From the NCBI GenBank assembly GCA_021788955.1, contig JAJYKC010000181.1:1-6030 (forward strand): 6,030 nucleotides of DNA. Direction: 5' to 3'. Below are positions 1 to 6,030 of this stretch, piece after piece (position 1 is the stretch's first letter; each line of letters opens with the position of its first letter). The notes under the pieces are model-generated. The model ran no database searches and was not told the DNA's origin. It worked only from the letters and a program-made list of their open reading frames with translations. The position numbers were made by a program, and so were the translations under genes. This stretch comes from Acidobacteriota bacterium. GTDB taxonomy: Bacteria; Acidobacteriota; Terriglobia; Bryobacterales; Bryobacteraceae.

Positions 1-174
1 CTTACTCCGCAAGAGGCCGGCAATATCGCCGCCCATGCCGGCGTGCGGCGCCTTGTGTTCACCCACCTGGGCATTCCGGGCAAGACAAGCACCGAAGCGC
101 CGAATCTCGTCAGGGCAGCACATGAAACCTTCCGTGGCGAAATAATTGTGGCCCATGACCTTGACAGATTCTGA
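1..174 (+). CDS. MBL-fold metallo-hydrolase, RNase Z-like (C-terminal fragment)
   Basis: This is the last 57 codons of a gene entering from the left edge in frame 1 and stopping at TGA 172-174. The visible peptide begins L-T-P-Q-E-A-G and contains A-A-H-A-G-V, then L-V-F-T-H-L and finally I-V-A-H-D-L-D. This order matches the C-terminus of metallo-beta-lactamase-fold hydrolases of the ribonuclease Z/arylsulfatase-like group, where the His in the T-H motif after a beta strand is a metal ligand and a short D-L segment ends the domain. The N-terminal HxHxDH metal site, which would confirm the family, lies outside the window, so the substrate (tRNA 3' end or another ester) cannot be decided. The next gene on the same strand starts 341 bases later, so it is probably a separate transcription unit. 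I am fairly sure of the fold and unsure of the exact function. Confidence 0.75.
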   Translation, partial: LTPQEAGNIAAHAGVRRLVFTHLGIPGKTSTEAPNLVRAAHETFRGEIIVAHDLDRF

Positions 175-353
175 GGCGTAGTTCATCTGGAGCCCGACCG
201 AACCGGGGACGGCTGGTGCGACCCGGAGCTAATCTACCAAGCGGGTTCCAAGCGTGTGACGTGCTAACAGGACAGAACCGAGGCGTAATGCGTAACGGAC
301 CTCTCTCGCTGACGGCACGTGCTCCACGCCCCAGCAACCGAAGCGACGGACAG

Positions 354-393
354 GACCGCGGGGCGGGTCCGCCGCCACTTCTGATCCGCGGTC
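354..393. repeat. 8-bp perfect inverted repeat, GACCGCGG / CCGCGGTC
   Basis: GACCGCGG at 354-361 is the exact reverse complement of CCGCGGTC at 386-393. The 24 bases between them include a smaller GGCGG-GT-CCGCC repeat (362-373). The right arm overlaps the left arm of the next repeat (382-388), so the two hairpins could not form together in one RNA. The repeats are directly visible, but GC-rich sequence makes them easier to find by chance and no role is known. Confidence 0.4.
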
Positions 394-405
394 AGTGTCG
401 GATCA
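382..405. repeat. 7-bp perfect inverted repeat, TGATCCG / CGGATCA
   Basis: TGATCCG (382-388) and CGGATCA (399-405) are perfect reverse complements separated by 10 bases. The repeat lies about 110 bases upstream of the yggX-like start. It could be an operator or a hairpin in an upstream transcript. No T-run follows it, so it does not look like an intrinsic terminator. Confidence 0.4.
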
Positions 406-417
406 CGCCAGGAATTT

Positions 418-434
418 CGGCTGGGAGTCAGCCG
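418..434. repeat. 6-bp hairpin, CGGCTG-GGAGT-CAGCCG
   Basis: CGGCTG (418-423) and CAGCCG (429-434) pair perfectly around a five-base loop. It sits just downstream of the 382-405 repeat, giving two consecutive potential hairpins. No T-tract follows. Its function is unknown. Confidence 0.4.
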
Positions 435-489
435 CGCAGTTGTCCGCGATTCTGATATCCCATAATCCGTTCTCCCCCACCCCATGCGC

Positions 490-506
490 TATTCTGAATC
501 GAGAGG
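490..506 (+). promoter_or_regulatory. Possible -10 element and ribosome binding site of the yggX-like gene
   Basis: TATTCT at 490-495 resembles a sigma-70 -10 hexamer. GAGAGG at 501-506 is a reasonable Shine-Dalgarno sequence, nine bases before the ATG at 516. No good -35 box is seen at the expected spacing. An alternative promoter would be TTGTCC (440-445) with CATAAT (461-466), but that spacer is only 15 bases. The ribosome binding site is more secure than the promoter. Confidence 0.3.
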
Positions 507-515
507 ATATCGAAC

Positions 516-842
516 ATGGGTTGTGGAAGTGGCATGCCGGGGCCGCAGGTGCCGGAAACCAGCACAAGAAGCGTTTTTTGCGTGAAGTTTCAGCGCGAGA
601 TGCCCGGGCTCGAGGAGCCGCCCTTCGACAATCATCCGCTTGGCCAGCGCATCTACGAGAACGTTTCGAAGGAAGCGTGGAAGATGTGGGTCGAGCAGAT
701 GAAGATGATCATGAACGAGTACCGCCTCAACCTCGGCACGCCGGAGGCGCAGGAGTTTTTGCTGAAGCAGATGGAAGATTATTTCTTCGGCGAAGGCGCG
801 AAACTTCCTCCCGGCTTCGTTCCCCCGCAAGCCAAGAAGTAA
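516..842 (+). CDS. yggX: YggX-like Fe(II)-trafficking / oxidative damage protection protein
   Basis: The 108-residue product matches the YggX family, small cytosolic proteins linked to iron handling and protection of Fe-S clusters from oxidative damage. The family core is clear: V-F-C with Cys22, Q-R-E at 26-28, L-G-Q-R-I-Y at 42-47, V-S-K-E-A-W at 50-55, M-N-E at 66-68, L-N at 71-72, and a C-terminal F-F-G-E-G followed by G-F-V-P-P. Cys22 corresponds to the conserved N-terminal cysteine of the family. Family members are usually about 90 residues and place this cysteine near residue 7, so the ATG at 516 gives roughly 15 extra N-terminal residues rich in Gly and Pro, with an additional Cys3. 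ATG 534 or GTG 549 would remove part of this. I kept 516 because GAGAGG lies nine bases upstream, although GGAAG before 534 is also possible. The gene stands alone on this strand, and its TAA directly touches the stop codon of the convergent ATP-grasp gene. Confidence 0.9.
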   Translation: MGCGSGMPGPQVPETSTRSVFCVKFQREMPGLEEPPFDNHPLGQRIYENVSKEAWKMWVEQMKMIMNEYRLNLGTPEAQEFLLKQMEDYFFGEGAKLPPGFVPPQAKK

Positions 843-2063
843 CTACCGAATTACGGGCAGAACTGTCTGGATATCGAACTCCAGCCGGCTGTGGGCCCGG
901 CGAAGTGCCTCTTCGGCAGCGGCCGGCTTGGCGGCGCGGGAAAATAAGAACCCCAGATAGCTATGGCCTTCCGGCAGCGGCTGCAGGTGATGACCTTGTT
1001 TCGCCGTGATCACCGCATCCACAATGCCCTCCGTGGTCAGCGCGTCGTCGATCCCTCGCACGTCCACGTACACACCCTCGCGGGGAATGGGAATCATCAT
1101 GACGCCCGAGGCCTCTCCATCGAGGTGCAGTTCGCCCGGATCGAGGCCCGCCGCGTGACGCAGGATCAGTTCTTCGAGCCCCGGCAACGCGCGGGCACAC
1201 AAGCCTCCGATGGGCCGAGGCGCCGCTTCGAGCACCCACACGCCTTCCCGATTGAGCCGCATCTCGGTGTGCACGGGGCCGTGAGTCAATCCGAGTGCGC
1301 TCACCGCGCGGGCCGCGGCACTCGTCAGCGCGTCTTGCACGCCGGCCGGTTCGCGTGACGGCGTGACGTAAATCGTTTCCTCGAAAAACGGACCGTCCAG
1401 CGGGTCCGGCTTATCGAAGATTGCCAGCGCGCGAAACCGCCCGCGGCTCATGATGCCCTCGACAGCGAACTCGCGCCCCGGAATAAACTCTTCCACTTGG
1501 ACAAACCGCTCCTGCTCCGCCGCGCGCGCGCCGGCAAGCAACGCCCGGATTCGCGCGCAGGCGGCGGTAAACTCCGCCGGGTTATCGGCGCGAATCACGC
1601 CGCGACTGCCCGACATCGTCAGCGGCTTCAGCACGCAGGGATAAGGCGCTCGCGACGACGCAGCTTCGGCATCCTCGTCCGGAGAGATCCGGAAAAATCG
1701 CGGCGCAGGCATGCCGGCCTTGCGAAAACACTCCCGCGCAAGAAACTTATTCGACGCCGCGCGAACCGCATCGGGCGAATGAAACGGCAAGGCGAGCCGG
1801 GCCGCCGTCACGGCCGCCAGGAACGCGGGCCGGTCGCCCACAGCCGCGATGCCGTCTACTTTCCCGGCCTCCGCCGCCGCGCGCCGCGCCGAGCCCTCGG
1901 CGTTGTTGAACCGCAGCGCAATCGCCCCGTCGCCCCACGGGTCGTCCATCACGTGGCAGCGGTCCGTGGCCAGGCGCAGTTCCAGGCCGGCGCGTTCCGC
2001 CGCTTCGGCGAAAGAGCGCAACTGGTAGCCGGTGGTTGCCGCGAAGAGAAGAACTTTCGGCAT
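843..2063 (-). CDS. ATP-grasp ligase (L-amino-acid-ligase-like), partner of the radical SAM selenoprotein
   Basis: The 406-residue protein is an ATP-grasp enzyme, the superfamily that uses ATP to activate a carboxylate as acyl-phosphate and joins it to an amine or similar nucleophile. An N-terminal Rossmann-like segment starts M-P-K-V-L-L-F. The ATP-grasp core follows: N-K-F at 105-107, the nucleotide-binding V-L-K-P with Lys146, the glycine-rich loop S-G-S-R-G (151-155), V-Q-V-E-E-F-I-P-G-R-E-F (188-199), H-T-E-M-R around Glu267, and L-E-A-A-P-R-P-I-G-G (278-287) carrying the metal and phosphate ligands. The C-terminal 85 residues (G-V-M-M-I-P onward) resemble the extra domain of BacD/YwfE-type L-amino acid ligases. 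The substrate is unknown. I chose ATG 2063 because the preceding gene, read through its selenocysteine codon, ends at 2069, leaving a five-base gap, and because M-P-K-V-L-L-F fits the family start. The upstream GTG at 2117 would add 18 unrelated residues. No strong Shine-Dalgarno precedes 2063, which suggests translational coupling. Confidence 0.85.
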   Translation of the reverse strand: MPKVLLFAATTGYQLRSFAEAAERAGLELRLATDRCHVMDDPWGDGAIALRFNNAEGSARRAAAEAGKVDGIAAVGDRPAFLAAVTAARLALPFHSPDAVRAASNKFLARECFRKAGMPAPRFFRISPDEDAEAASSRAPYPCVLKPLTMSGSRGVIRADNPAEFTAACARIRALLAGARAAEQERFVQVEEFIPGREFAVEGIMSRGRFRALAIFDKPDPLDGPFFEETIYVTPSREPAGVQDALTSAAARAVSALGLTHGPVHTEMRLNREGVWVLEAAPRPIGGLCARALPGLEELILRHAAGLDPGELHLDGEASGVMMIPIPREGVYVDVRGIDDALTTEGIVDAVITAKQGHHLQPLPEGHSYLGFLFSRAAKPAAAEEALRRAHSRLEFDIQTVLPVIR

Positions 2064-2068
2064 TTGAT

Positions 2069-3421
2069 TCAGAGGCGAGCCAACTGCTCGTCCGCGGGTT
2101 CGGCTCAACAGTACCACGGCTCTTCGAGATACGGGATCGTGGCGCGCGCAGGCCGCGGATCGTCACCCATCGCCTTCCCGTGCGCCAGCGTCCACAGCCG
2201 CTCGAAGATTTCGCGGCGCGAAGCCTGCTCCCGCTGGGCGTCCTGCACGGTTTGCATGGCGCTCGCAGAAAGCCAGTCCATCGAAGGGTCCGGATGATTC
2301 CAGCGGTAGAGCAGCGCCGGAGGATCGAACCTGTCGATACAAGCGGCGACGTCGCTTAACTCGAGCAGCAGCGAATGGGCCGGAATCAGCAGCCGCAGCG
2401 CAAGCTGAAGCGGCGCGGTGTGCTCCACCAGTTCCAATTCGTGCAGCGAGGCGAGCAGGTCGCGGTAGGACGCGGCGGTGGTCCACGGAGTGAAAGGGAT
2501 GAATGTCGGAGCGAGGGCAAGTCCCGATTCCCGCATCAACTCCGCCGCGGCGAAAAAATCCGCCCGCGTGTGGCCCTTGTCGAGCCTGGCGAGAACGGCG
2601 TCGTCCAGTGACTCCACCGCGCTCGTCACAAACAGGCAGCCGGTGCCGCGGAGCACGGGCAATATCGAACGGTGCTTGAGCAGGTGCTCGATCTTGATGG
2701 TCGCGTCGTAAGTAACTTCCGGGAACTCGTGGTGCAGCCGCTCGACGATGCGCCGGGCGTGCGCCGGCCCGTTCAGGAAATCCGGATCGCCGAAGGTGAT
2801 GTGGCGAGCCCCGGCTTCCACCTGCTGGCGGATATCGGCGAGAACGACATCGGCGGAGACGACGCGGAACGCGCCGCGATACACCGGCACAACCGGGCAG
2901 TGGCGGCACAAGTGCTTGCACCCGCGCGAAGCCTCCGTGTAGCCAGCCACCGTGGCGCCGCTGTCAGTCACCAGTTGCGGATAGAGGCGAAGCGACGGCA
3001 GAGTCGAGCGGTCCGGCGTCAGAAACCGCTGCCGGGCCAGGTGTGCCGTCTCCTTCGCGACGCGACCCTCGGCAAACTCGACCAGCGCCGTCTCAAACTC
3101 AGCCCCAAAACACGCCTCCACGCCCAGGGTTCGGAGATGTTCACGATTCAGAGCGGCGTAAAGGCCGAAACAGCAGACGCGAGCGGAAGGGTTCACTCGC
3201 CGGGCGCGTTCAATCAGCGGGACGGCAAGCCTGGTCGCGGTGTGCATCGGCAGAAAGAAGGCGATCAGCCCGGCGTCCTGAAAAGCCTCTCCGGAAACCG
3301 GCGCGAGGCTTGCGTCAACGCACTCCACCTGATGCCCGCGCGCGCGCAGCCATGCGGCCGGGGATGCCAAGCCGAAGGGCTGATGGCCAAGGTCGTATGT
3401 CGAAACCAGGAGGACACGCAT
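2069..3421 (-). CDS. B12-binding/radical SAM selenoprotein with CUAEP tail
   Basis: The 450-residue product is a radical SAM enzyme, read with the TGA at 2107-2105 as selenocysteine (Sec439). Residues 1-125 (M-R-V-L-L-V-S-T-Y-D onward) form a Rossmann-like region in the position of a cobalamin-binding domain, though a classical DxHxxG motif is not obvious. The radical SAM core starts near 160 and has the cluster motif C-K-H-L-C-R-H-C (Cys168, 172, 175) that binds a 4Fe-4S cluster and S-adenosylmethionine. G-D-P-D-F-L-N-G (211-218) follows a core strand. The tail reads E-E-P-W-Y-C-U-A-E-P and then eight residues to TGA 2071-2069. I recall a recognised family of radical SAM proteins with a CUAEP or CCAEP tail, in which Sec and Cys interchange. 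The start ATG 3421 has AAGGAG nine bases upstream. The gene ends five bases before the ATP-grasp gene, so they form an operon. The reaction is unknown; the C-U pair suggests a redox-active or substrate-contacting tail. Confidence 0.88.
2074..2093 (-). promoter_or_regulatory. Putative bacterial SECIS hairpin downstream of the Sec TGA
   Basis: On the minus strand, CGAGC (2090-2086) and GCUCG (2080-2076) form a perfect five-base-pair stem around the loop AGUUG (2085-2081). Two more G-C pairs (2093/2074 and 2092/2075) can add below a bulged A at 2091. The loop begins 20 bases after the TGA at 2107-2105. Known bacterial SECIS elements lie immediately downstream of the UGA within the reading frame, with the apical loop about 16-37 bases away and a G among the first two loop bases. 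This hairpin meets both criteria. It would recruit SelB with Sec-tRNA to recode the UGA. Assignment is by inspection, without a folding calculation. Confidence 0.72.
2105..2107 (-). other. In-frame TGA recoded as selenocysteine (Sec439)
   Basis: The codon follows TGG-TAC-TGT (Trp-Tyr-Cys) and precedes GCC-GAA-CCC (Ala-Glu-Pro), giving C-U-A-E-P. The open frame continues twelve sense or Sec codons to a second TGA at 2071-2069. Support comes from the family tail motif, the hairpin directly downstream and the fit to the next gene's start. Selenocysteine decoding also needs selA, selB, selC and selD elsewhere in the genome, which cannot be seen here. Confidence 0.85.
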
Positions 3422-3436
3422 GAGCGAGGACTCCTT
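3408..3436. promoter_or_regulatory. Two opposing Shine-Dalgarno sequences around overlapping start codons
   Basis: On the plus strand AGGAGG (3408-3413) lies six bases before the ATG at 3420. On the minus strand AAGGAG (complement of 3431-3436) lies nine bases before the ATG at 3421. The two ATGs share bases in the tetramer CATG (3419-3422). The minus-strand site is very likely functional. The plus-strand AGGAGG lies opposite the Val-Leu-Leu codons of the radical SAM gene, so it could be coincidental. Confidence 0.55.
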
Positions 3437-4904
3437 TCATCGTAGCGGCCTGCACGCCGGACGGGGATTCGCCGTCATAACTCATGTGAGGTTCTGGCCT
3501 TTCGCGTTGGCGTGTGTCTGCACGGCAGTGTATTCGCAGCCGGCTTCCGCCCTACGCCCGAACATCGCCGTGGAAGTGCCCGGCGTGATTGGCAGCATCC
3601 CGGGCCAGGAATTAGCCGAAGCCCGGCAGCCCCAGCCGGCGCCCGAACTGAAACTTCCCCCCGGGCGCCACGATTACGACCTCAAAGGCGACAGCCGCAC
3701 GCTCTTCGAGCAGGTTGCGCGGATGTTGGGTTTGCAGGTCGTCTTCGACCGCGAATACCAGCCGACGGCCAACGTCCGCTTCTACGTGGAACAGCAAGAC
3801 GCGCGCGCGACGCTGCGCCTGCTCGAAGCCGCCACCGATTCTTTCGTGGCGCCGATGGGCGAACATGTGATCCTGGTGGCGCGGGACACGGTGCAGAAGC
3901 GGCAGCTTTACGCCCCCATGATCGCAGTCGCGGTGCCGATTCCGGAGGGGGTAACGCCGCAGGAGATTCAGGAGATCGCGAACGCGGTGCGTTCTTCGAT
4001 GGATATCCGGCGCCTGATGGCCGATCCCGACAAACGGATGATCCTCATCCGCGACACCGAAGGCAAGGTGCGGACCGCCCAACTCCTGGCGGAAGATCTG
4101 ATGCGCCCGCGCCCGCAGGTGGAGGTGGAGGTCGAGTTGATGACGACGACGTCGGACGTGGCGACACACTATGGCCTTTCGCTGCCGGCCTCGTTCCCGA
4201 TCGTCGATTTTCTCGGCAACGGCGCGAACCTGCTCGGCTCGCCGCTCACCTCCGCAGTCTCCGGTTTTCTCACGTTCGGCGGAGGCACGACTTTCATCGG
4301 CATCGGCCTGACGAGCGCCACGCTATGGGCCACGGCGAGCCGGTCGATCACCAAGACGCTCGACCACGCGGAAATGCTGGCGAGCGACGGACAGCCGGCG
4401 ACATTGAAGATCGGCACGAAATATCCGATGGTAACCAACGCTTACGTCGGCCAGGTGACGGGCACCGGCCCGGTTTACACGCCGCCGCCGACGGTCCAAT
4501 TTGAGGATCTCGGCCTGGTGCTGAAGATCACGCCGCACGTGCACGGGATGAATGAAGTCACGCTCGACGTGGAAGCATCGTTTCAGCTTCTCGCGGGCAC
4601 GGCGGCGAGCGGATTGCCGATCATTTCCGACCGGGAATACAAGGGGACGGTGCGGATGCGGGAAGGCCAGTCGGCGATTCTGGCGGGCATGATGAGCGCC
4701 TCCGACGCGCGGACGGCGGTCGGGATCCTGGGGCTGATGAACATTCCGCTCATCGGCAAGATTCTGAGTGAGCGTACCACGGACAAAGCGCACGACGATA
4801 CGCTGATTGTGCTGCGGCCTCATCTCACGATCCCTCCGCCCGGTATTTTCGCCGTGCACGAGGCGTGGGTGGGCAGCGAAACACGTCCCGCCGAACCGCT
4901 GTAG
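3420..4904 (+). CDS. Secretin-family outer-membrane protein (type II/III secretion-like)
   Basis: The 494-residue product is a secretin-like protein, the family that forms gated rings in the outer membrane of type II/III secretion and type IV pilus machines. After a signal peptide come an N0/STN-like domain (about 85-155, starting Y-D-L-K-G-D and including L-G-L-Q-V-V-F-D), an N1-type ring domain (about 168-228) and the secretin domain (about 233-471). The latter shows Q-V-E-V-E-V-E-L, L-G-L-V-L-K-I-T-P-H-V and the terminal I-P-L-I-G-K-I-L-S followed by L-I-V-L-R-P-H-L, typical of the secretin C-terminus. Start choice is open. ATG 3420 has a strong AGGAGG but gives a long 24-residue n-region. 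GTG 3486 (residue 23) lacks a Shine-Dalgarno but yields a textbook signal peptide with cleavage after P-A-S-A (41-44), and it would leave a 64-base divergent promoter space. It is shorter than typical GspD or PilQ, and no secretion or pilus partner gene adjoins it. Confidence 0.82.
   Translation: MSEDSFHRSGLHAGRGFAVITHVRFWPFALACVCTAVYSQPASALRPNIAVEVPGVIGSIPGQELAEARQPQPAPELKLPPGRHDYDLKGDSRTLFEQVARMLGLQVVFDREYQPTANVRFYVEQQDARATLRLLEAATDSFVAPMGEHVILVARDTVQKRQLYAPMIAVAVPIPEGVTPQEIQEIANAVRSSMDIRRLMADPDKRMILIRDTEGKVRTAQLLAEDLMRPRPQVEVEVELMTTTSDVATHYGLSLPASFPIVDFLGNGANLLGSPLTSAVSGFLTFGGGTTFIGIGLTSATLWATASRSITKTLDHAEMLASDGQPATLKIGTKYPMVTNAYVGQVTGTGPVYTPPPTVQFEDLGLVLKITPHVHGMNEVTLDVEASFQLLAGTAASGLPIISDREYKGTVRMREGQSAILAGMMSASDARTAVGILGLMNIPLIGKILSERTTDKAHDDTLIVLRPHLTIPPPGIFAVHEAWVGSETRPAEPL
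3460..3476. repeat. Short inverted repeat between the divergent genes, GACGG / CCGTC
   Basis: GACGG (3460-3464) and CCGTC (3472-3476) pair around seven bases. If the secretin gene really starts at GTG 3486, this lies in the divergent promoter region and could be an operator or hairpin. If it starts at 3420, the repeat is simply coding. Five base pairs in GC-rich DNA can easily arise by chance. Confidence 0.2.
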
Positions 4905-4936
4905 TGGCGGGATGCAGAGGGCGACGGCTTCCGGCT

Positions 4937-4945
4937 TGTTATCCT
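4937..4945 (+). promoter_or_regulatory. Possible extended -10 promoter of the SIS-domain gene
   Basis: The 53-base gap between the secretin gene and the SIS-domain gene contains TGT followed by TATCCT (4940-4945), which resembles an extended -10 element. No clear -35 box is seen. Transcription would start about 6-7 bases before the ATG at 4958, giving an almost leaderless message, in keeping with the weak ribosome binding site there. The alternative is simple co-transcription with the secretin gene. Confidence 0.25.
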
Positions 4946-4957
4946 GAAGCAGCATCA

Positions 4958-6019
4958 ATGTCGAAAATGTTGCAGGAGATCCGCCAGCAGCCCGAGGCGC
5001 TGGAGCGGACACTGAAAAGTTCGCTGCGGCTGGCGGAGAAGCTGAAGCGGCGTCTGGAACAAAAACGGCCGCGAATGATTTTGCTGGCGGCGCGCGGCAC
5101 CTCCGACAATGCGGCGTTGTTCGGCCGGTATCTGCTGGAAATCGCGACCGGCATCCCGGTTTCGCTCGCCGCGCCCAGCGTATTCACGCTCTACGGCGCG
5201 CGGCTTGCTCTCGACGATGTGCTCGTGGCCGCGATCTCGCAGTCGGGTGAATCCACCGACATCAACGTGGTATTGGAGCGCGCCCGCGAGGAGGGAGCGC
5301 TGTCGATCGGCATCACCAACGAAGCCGGCAGCACGATGGCAAAGCTAGCCGAGTACACTTTCCTGGTGAAGGCCGGACGGGAGAAGAGCGTGGCCGCCAC
5401 CAAGACTTACACCGGCCAGCTTCTGTGCATGTATCTACTGACGTACGCTCTCGGCGGCGGAGTAAATCTAGAGACACTGGCGCGGCTGCCCGAGTGGACC
5501 GAAAGCGCGTTGAGTCTGGAAGAACGCATCGCCGAGAGAGCCGAACGGTACCGGTTCATGGAGCATGCCGTGGTGGTGGGCCGGGGCATGGCGTACGCGG
5601 ACGCGTTCGAGTTCGCGCTTAAGCTGATGGAGACCTGTTACGTCGTGGCCGAGCGGTTCTCATCGGCGGATTTTCTCCATGGGCCGATTGCGATGGTGGA
5701 GCGGTCGTTCCCGGCGTTCCTGTTTACGCCGCCGGGCGTAACCTGGCCGACGATGCGCGAAATGCTGGACAAGCTGGAACACCTGAAAGCGGACACGCTA
5801 CTGATTACGGACGAGAGTAATCGCGAGGCGCTCGACCGCGGACGGGGCGTGATCGCGATTCCGGCGAAGCTGGCCCGGAAGTCCGGGCTGCCGGTGGAAG
5901 TCTACACGCCTATTCCCTACATCGTGCCGGCGCAGTTATTCGCGGCGCGGCTGGCAGCCGAGAAGGGGCTCGATCCGGACCAGCCACGCACGCTCACCAA
6001 AGTGACCAGAACGCTCTGA
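4958..6019 (+). CDS. SIS-domain phosphosugar isomerase/deaminase (GlmS isomerase-like, no glutaminase domain)
   Basis: The 353-residue protein has two SIS sugar-phosphate-binding domains and matches the isomerase half of glucosamine-6-phosphate synthase (GlmS) without its N-terminal glutaminase domain. Such stand-alone proteins include aminosugar-phosphate deaminases (NagB-II type) and AgaS-like isomerases. The first domain shows A-A-R-G-T-S-D-N-A (44-52) and the phosphate loop S-Q-S-G-E-S-T (94-100), followed by S-V-A-A-T-K-T-Y-T (144-152). The second shows A-L-K-L-M-E-T (220-226), whose Lys222 and Glu225 match the catalytic Lys and Glu of GlmS, then L-H-G-P with His241 matching the ring-opening His. 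The C-terminus D-P-D-Q-P-R-T-L-T-K keeps the active-site Lys348. All key residues are therefore present. It probably acts in the cytosol on fructose-6-phosphate/glucosamine-6-phosphate or related aminosugars, with free ammonia instead of glutamine. ATG 4958 was chosen because the homologous region begins M-S-K-M-L-Q-E-I; the open frame extends upstream to 4865 but overlaps the secretin gene. Confidence 0.9.
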   Translation: MSKMLQEIRQQPEALERTLKSSLRLAEKLKRRLEQKRPRMILLAARGTSDNAALFGRYLLEIATGIPVSLAAPSVFTLYGARLALDDVLVAAISQSGESTDINVVLERAREEGALSIGITNEAGSTMAKLAEYTFLVKAGREKSVAATKTYTGQLLCMYLLTYALGGGVNLETLARLPEWTESALSLEERIAERAERYRFMEHAVVVGRGMAYADAFEFALKLMETCYVVAERFSSADFLHGPIAMVERSFPAFLFTPPGVTWPTMREMLDKLEHLKADTLLITDESNREALDRGRGVIAIPAKLARKSGLPVEVYTPIPYIVPAQLFAARLAAEKGLDPDQPRTLTKVTRTL

Positions 6020-6030
6020 GCCGGCGGTGA

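Follow-up and report, generated by a model that had tools for sequence, protein, structure and literature searches.

A stop-like codon predicted to encode selenocysteine in a CUAEP-tail radical SAM protein with an ATP-grasp ligase partner

Results and discussion

The window analysed here, a stretch of 6,030 nucleotides from an Acidobacteriota bacterium (GenBank assembly GCA_021788955.1, contig JAJYKC010000181.1, positions 1 to 6,030), carried on its minus strand a radical S-adenosylmethionine (SAM) gene whose apparent stop is, judging from its relatives, almost certainly a selenocysteine (Sec) codon. The frame ran from 3421 to 2105 and its last codons were Trp-Tyr-Cys-TGA, the first TGA being the end by plain open reading frame (ORF) calling. 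Read as Sec, this TGA gives Cys-Sec-Ala-Glu-Pro plus eight residues up to a second TGA (complement 2069-2071), which a gap of five bases (2064-2068) separates from the ATG (complement 2061-2063) of an ATP-grasp gene. The minus-strand letters (TGG TAC TGT TGA GCC GAA CCC GCG GAC GAG CAG TTG GCT CGC CTC TGA ATCAA ATG) match exactly the arrangement described in the original prediction. The best joint explanation, to which we assign a probability of about 0.85, is a Sec codon with its own hairpin, a Cys-Sec arm that probably works as a unit, and an enzyme that forms a functional unit with the neighbouring ligase.

Cys and Sec exchange before a conserved tail

Relatives were collected by a contig scan, from which the best 80 of 576 confirmed relatives were kept, giving a sample weighted to close relatives; by record titles these covered Acidobacteriota, Chloroflexota, Gemmatimonadota, Calditrichota, Latescibacterota and others. 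With 24 new Acidobacteriota, 22 new members of a Chloroflexota order, one plasmid locus and the window itself, this made 128 distinct sources, five further loci (L084, L113, L134, L137 and L142) being repeat fetches of genomes already counted. Five sources stood outside the dyad counts: the tail of L130 read C-TGA-SEP, and L004, L108, L118 and L121 had no visible tail. The L118 homologue left the family sequence right after IPYP, without a dyad, and is perhaps a frameshifted or degraded copy. The 123 readable tails carried Cys-Sec (92), Cys-Cys (21), Sec-Cys (6) or Sec-Sec (4), and in every one the dyad was followed by Ala-Glu-Pro (AEP). Conservation of AEP beyond the TGA, on which the original prediction had staked its case, thus held in 123/123 tails, and Cys, which it had proposed looking for at the TGA position, was found there in the 21 Cys-Cys and six Sec-Cys forms. 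In the dyad, Cys was encoded by TGT or TGC and Sec by TGA, and neither position ever held TAA or TAG. Several genes in the set, that of the window among them, also used TGA as their final stop; therefore UGA is not generally reassigned.

To estimate how often the two residues have been exchanged, we used a 122-row tree built by a quick method without the dyad columns and left unrooted, omitting L146 (245 residues). Separating Sec-containing from Cys-Cys states required a minimum of 14 changes, at least seven of them forced by well-supported branches for the Cys-Cys label, and the two residues have therefore replaced each other repeatedly. An ordinary stop followed by a vestigial or non-coding tail is a reading that database annotation would seem to favour: among the best 120 of 7998 scored homologues, 49 gene calls stop exactly at W[YF]C, 70 run on as W[YF]CCAEP and one stops at WY. 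Paludibaculum fermentans, a cultured species, is one of the sources of these database homologues. The tail is kept across phyla, however, Cys takes the place of the TGA while TAA and TAG never do, and the hairpin described below is mostly confined to UGA forms. We therefore rejected the ordinary stop, which we regard as highly improbable, and the selenocysteine codon originally proposed at this position stands.

One record in the collection, L061, comes from a contig titled as a Bifidobacterium breve metagenome-assembled genome (MAG); its family gene grouped (support 99) with genes from G594 and G566 of the Acidobacteriota sample, and the record is probably mislabelled or mixed.

A SECIS-type hairpin follows the UGA

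A selenocysteine insertion sequence (SECIS)-type hairpin, defined as lying in register with the UGA with a stem of at least 4 bp and an AG[GT]T-type loop, was present in 95/101 Sec forms vs 6/21 Cys forms (Fisher 3.4e-10; L025, at a contig end, was left out). When synonymous codons were redrawn 500 times with the protein kept, the 101 Sec forms had 10.2 hairpins on average and never more than 20; under the same null the 21 Cys forms averaged 0.9 and never exceeded 4. A smaller earlier sample had given 60/63 and 6/17, respectively. Across the 87 loci in the main register, positions 20-30 paired as AU, GC, CG or GU and positions 21-29 as GC, UA, CG or UG, variation that indicates compensatory change; eight loci used a shifted register with a 4-nt loop. 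Six Cys-Cys genes (L006, L023, L055, L069, L081 and L082) had a 4- to 6-bp hairpin where a SECIS would lie, and because 6/21 exceeds the codon null, a vestige of the element seems to persist in some Cys forms, as expected after loss of Sec.

The bacterial SECIS model, as given in PMC13188914, has a loop of 3-9 nt, a stem of 4-16 bp, G in the first two loop positions, a distance of 16-37 nt from the UGA and a minimum free energy at or below -7.5 kcal/mol. The window hairpin, with a 5-nt loop, a 5-bp stem, G as the second loop base and a spacing of 19 nt, lay within the structural limits but, at about -7.1 kcal/mol on its own, just missed the energy limit; across the family as a whole, support for the hairpin is strong. 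A search of the window against Rfam returned three sub-threshold matches, and the SECIS family was absent among them.

Sec at either position of the dyad

Sec-Sec genes (WY-TGA-TGA-AEP; L056, L074, L139 and L143) and Sec-Cys genes (WY-TGA-TG[TC]-AEP; L079, L135, L138, L140, L141 and L145) together formed one Chloroflexota clade of ten (Shimodaira-Hasegawa-like approximate likelihood ratio test, SH-aLRT, 97), with the six Sec-Cys genes as a clade (98) nested among the Sec-Sec genes. The simplest reading of these sequences is a passage from Cys-Sec through Sec-Sec to Sec-Cys, in which Sec would have shifted one residue N-terminally via a double-Sec stage; as the tree is unrooted, this direction is taken from the outer rows. 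In the Sec-Sec genes the two UGAs lie 22 and 19 nt from the loop of a single hairpin, both inside the 16-37 nt range. A UU pattern scan of 400 genomes in a sample of the phylum Chloroflexota returned the starting genome only, and a family search in its order gave the others.

Sequencing or binning artefacts could be suspected, as L056, L074 and L079 derive from MAGs. Against this stand ten separate genomes in one supported clade with a supported Sec-Cys clade inside it, the AEP tail retained in these genes, and selA over cut-off in 9/10 of the genomes (G647 is the exception), so artefacts are a very unlikely source of the two forms. The occurrence of UUAEP and UCAEP tails, within a single Chloroflexota clade, is reported here as new. 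The wider idea, that Sec can occupy either position of a chalcogen dyad, that an Anaerolineae clade has shifted it via UGA-UGA on one SECIS hairpin, and that the dyad serves as a unit in an undescribed Sec-dependent radical SAM reaction feeding a dedicated amino-acid ligase, is one that we lean towards with some reserve.

Selenium machinery in relatives

The closest whole-gene relative, L005 (86% identical), had matches to selA (462 bits), selB (338.6 bits) and tRNA-Sec (79.7 bits); L004 was 88% identical over part of the gene, broken off by the contig end. A lack of selB and selC, which the original prediction had named as grounds for refutation in the source genome, was thus not seen in this closest whole-gene relative. 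Over the sampled relatives selA exceeded the cut-off in 71/79 genomes, comprising 59/62 with Sec forms and 12/17 with Cys forms (Fisher 0.0099). selB, searched in 50 of the 79, exceeded it in 28/33 and 12/17, respectively, and the five Cys-form genomes without selA were the same five without selB. Twelve genomes were searched for tRNA-Sec, of which 11 scored 59.9 to 79.7 bits and L024, a Cys form, 47.4 (threshold 47). Weak selB and tRNA-Sec matches mean little, since 14 control genomes gave a selB match in 14/14 (over cut-off in 2) and a tRNA-Sec match in 14/14 (over cut-off in 5), with selA in 1/14. Within the Chloroflexota order selA did not separate carriers of the radical SAM gene (21/25) from non-carriers (24/31).

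An ATP-grasp ligase accompanies the radical SAM gene

The downstream gene encoded ATP-grasp_4 and LAL_C2 domains, and its nearest solved structure was the L-amino acid ligase 3vot (99.6 bits). It resembles the L-amino acid ligases (BL00235, 3vot; BacD) in combining ATP-grasp with LAL_C2, but differs in falling below the cut-off of all 22 NCBIfam models listed for it. A ligase match was found in 45/80 radical SAM loci, in 39 of them on the same strand with a start at most 300 bases from the end of the radical SAM match, in four farther downstream (865 to 2923 bases) and in two on the opposite strand. A search of 34 other genomes, the genome of L004 lying outside it, gave a match at 1e-30 or better in 30. 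Across 149 Acidobacteriota genomes (1e-60 for each protein), 24 had both genes (centre genome included), one the radical SAM gene alone, two the ligase alone and 122 neither, which places the ligase in 24/25 radical SAM-positive vs 2/124 radical SAM-negative genomes. The 56 genomes of the Chloroflexota order (radical SAM 1e-100, ligase 1e-60) comprised 23 with both, two with the radical SAM gene alone, seven with the ligase alone and 24 with neither. From these sequence distributions, the radical SAM protein and the downstream amino-acid-ligase-like protein very probably form a functional unit, and this near-obligate partnership is to our reading new here.

At G495:C27:22315-23556, in an Acidobacteriota genome where the radical SAM gene was not found at 1e-60, an ATP-grasp homologue of 44% identity contained an in-frame TGA. 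A major facilitator superfamily (MFS) transporter lay convergent to the radical SAM gene in L001, where it is annotated, and in L056 and L074, where it was judged by the look of the protein; it is a possible carrier of the product.

Features of the window are collected in Table 1. The radical SAM ATG (complement 3419-3421) overlaps the first listed start (3420) of a divergent secretin-domain ORF, the real start of which is probably further inside. Convergent with the ATP-grasp gene, positions 516-842 encoded an Iron_traffic (YggX) family protein (123.4 bits, cut-off 74). A group of proteins of about 110 residues, alike by eye, was represented near the radical SAM gene in 17 other loci; such groupings of neighbour genes are leads only, as ORF calling missed genes in high-GC loci.

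Table 1. Coordinates of the radical SAM gene, its recoded end and its partner in the window
Feature	Position	Strand	Remark
Radical SAM selenoprotein (predicted), 450 aa, Sec = residue 439	2072..3421	minus	Cluster-binding C168/C172/C175; tail EPWYC-U-AEP
TGA codon predicted to be read as selenocysteine	2105..2107	minus	Cys/Sec exchange in relatives and downstream hairpin
Coding tail AEPADEQLARL and true stop TGA (2069-2071)	2069..2104	minus	
SECIS-type hairpin, 5-bp stem CGAGC/GCUCG, loop AGUUG (2081-2085)	2076..2090	minus	19 nt from UGA to loop
ATP-grasp ligase (L-amino acid ligase type, LAL_C2 domain), conserved radical SAM partner	843..2063	minus	

Family and fold

The window gene joins a family already known to NCBI. 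Its read-through protein matched NCBIfam NF040546, "CUAEP/CCAEP-tail radical SAM (seleno)protein", at 625.9 bits (curated cut-off 500), with residues 3-448 aligned on positions 1-467 of the 468-position profile, and it carries the C-terminal C[UC]AEP tail of that model as WYC-TGA-AEP. The family with such an ending that the original prediction had named therefore exists. The concern that standard annotation would drop the tail applies to plain ORF calling, which stops at the first TGA; at NCBI, NF040546 is already named a (seleno)protein. The window protein agrees with NF040546 throughout; the name of the model covers Cys-Sec and Cys-Cys, yet related loci add Sec-Cys and Sec-Sec. PF04055 was matched at 46.6 bits (cut-off 29.5), and PF02310 (B12-binding) at 22.7 bits, short of its gathering score of 32.1. 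In 18 aligned sequences the CxxxCxxC motif (C168, C172 and C175) was invariant, and the only other invariant Cys residues were C262 and C438 of the dyad.

Comparison supports an AprD4-like fold, with a B12-type Rossmann domain and a radical SAM barrel, and a short arm bearing the adjacent Cys-Sec at its end. Identity to the radical SAM 1,2-diol dehydratase AprD4 (6fd2) is 18%, and the aligned region, which ends at model residue 416, does not reach the dyad. Thioredoxin reductase (GCUG) and mercuric reductase MerA (Cys-Cys) also bear such a neighbouring pair on an arm at the C-terminus. The folds of these two differ from that of a radical SAM enzyme, and the likeness is limited to the manner of working.

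The second-best family was ArsL (NF040542; 251.6 bits, below its cut-off of 450). ArsL is likewise a radical SAM protein, 30 and 34% identical in two aligned examples, with a C-terminal vicinal Cys pair and, in the Priestia ArsL region L003, an ATP-grasp neighbour. The window protein differs in scoring under the cut-off and in ending in C[CU]AEP instead of RCCLKC, whereas ArsL has no Sec and sits among arsenic genes.

Possible function and competing readings

We think it probable, by inference, that the two dyad residues act together in the radical SAM site. The Cys-Sec arm would reach that site and capture or reduce a soft, electron-poor centre in the substrate; most likely the pair would hold a soft-element acceptor during SAM cleavage, by analogy with the vicinal Cys pair of ArsL, and the ATP-grasp enzyme would then couple the unusual amino acid so formed with another amino acid or an amine. 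Specific capture of a soft-element acceptor, drawn from this analogy, is a tentative suggestion. An equally tentative one is that the dyad is a redox pair (a selenenylsulfide) giving two electrons or a hydrogen atom to a substrate radical and being recycled by the cellular thiol system, modelled on the C-terminal GCUG of mammalian thioredoxin reductase. The use of Sec-Sec, Sec-Cys, Cys-Sec and Cys-Cys alike would suit a dichalcogenide couple, and with only C262 and C438 invariant beyond CxxxCxxC in the 18 sequences, a motif for an auxiliary cluster is not evident. Pointing away from a redox pair, the reaction predicted for ArsL, which has a vicinal Cys end, is transfer of the 3-amino-3-carboxypropyl group from SAM to As(III) and not dithiol redox chemistry (PMC8552651), and several CU-motif families in the 2026 table of PMC13188914 are organometal or metal-binding proteins (SaoL, HgcA, SaoC and MbdU).

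If the enzyme were of the ArsL type and made an arsinothricin-like arsenic amino acid, from which the ligase would make a peptide, NF040542 as the second-best family would be accounted for. The ATP-grasp protein of L003 also matched 32/81 neighbourhoods at 1e-8, a level of match that any ATP-grasp proteins could reach. The score and the tail already described do not fit ArsL, however, and when 13 proteins of two ArsL regions and the Priestia ATP-grasp protein were used as queries at 1e-8, an arsenic gene (an arsC homologue, in L008) appeared in just 1/81 neighbourhoods, all of them outside the window, in a search that distant kin could escape. Arsenic chemistry is thus unsupported by gene neighbourhood and we consider it unlikely.

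Several observations weigh against the combination of a recoded UGA, a metalloid-capturing dyad and a dedicated ligase. The arsenic result just given speaks against metalloid capture. Six of the 101 Sec forms had no 4-bp stem as defined and six of the 21 Cys forms had one. The window hairpin alone folded at about -7.1 kcal/mol, just short of the model's -7.5, and with its flank at -10, no better than chance, as 57/200 shuffles folded as well. In the structure model the confidence of the tail was lower (blocks of 69, 73 and 81). Among Sec-form genomes selA was absent from L016 and L048 and partial in L046 (3/62), and selB was below cut-off in 5/33, gaps that likely reflect MAG incompleteness. 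The ligase was not matched in 4 of the 34 searched genomes (L011, L059, L067 and L072), and it occurred without the radical SAM gene in 7 of 31 Chloroflexota genomes.

Standing in the literature and significance

NF040546 is not among the 119 prokaryotic selenoprotein families in Table 1 of a 2026 review (PMC13188914), nor is a motif written UU, although some motif fields of that table are blank. Full-text literature searches, thin in coverage of subscription journals and mostly judged from listings, yielded no paper on the family or on adjacent UU, and a known reaction for the CUAEP-tail family was not found in the literature searched. Two papers by NCBI curators that PMC13188914 cites could describe the family.

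Many database copies end just before Sec, and expressing the gene as annotated would yield a protein without its reactive arm. With its near-obligate ligase partner, the enzyme belongs to a two-gene system small enough for reconstitution. The adjacent UGAs, if both are read as Sec, would test tandem recoding by SelB with one SECIS, and the four natural states of the dyad offer a ready-made experiment on why the enzyme uses selenium.
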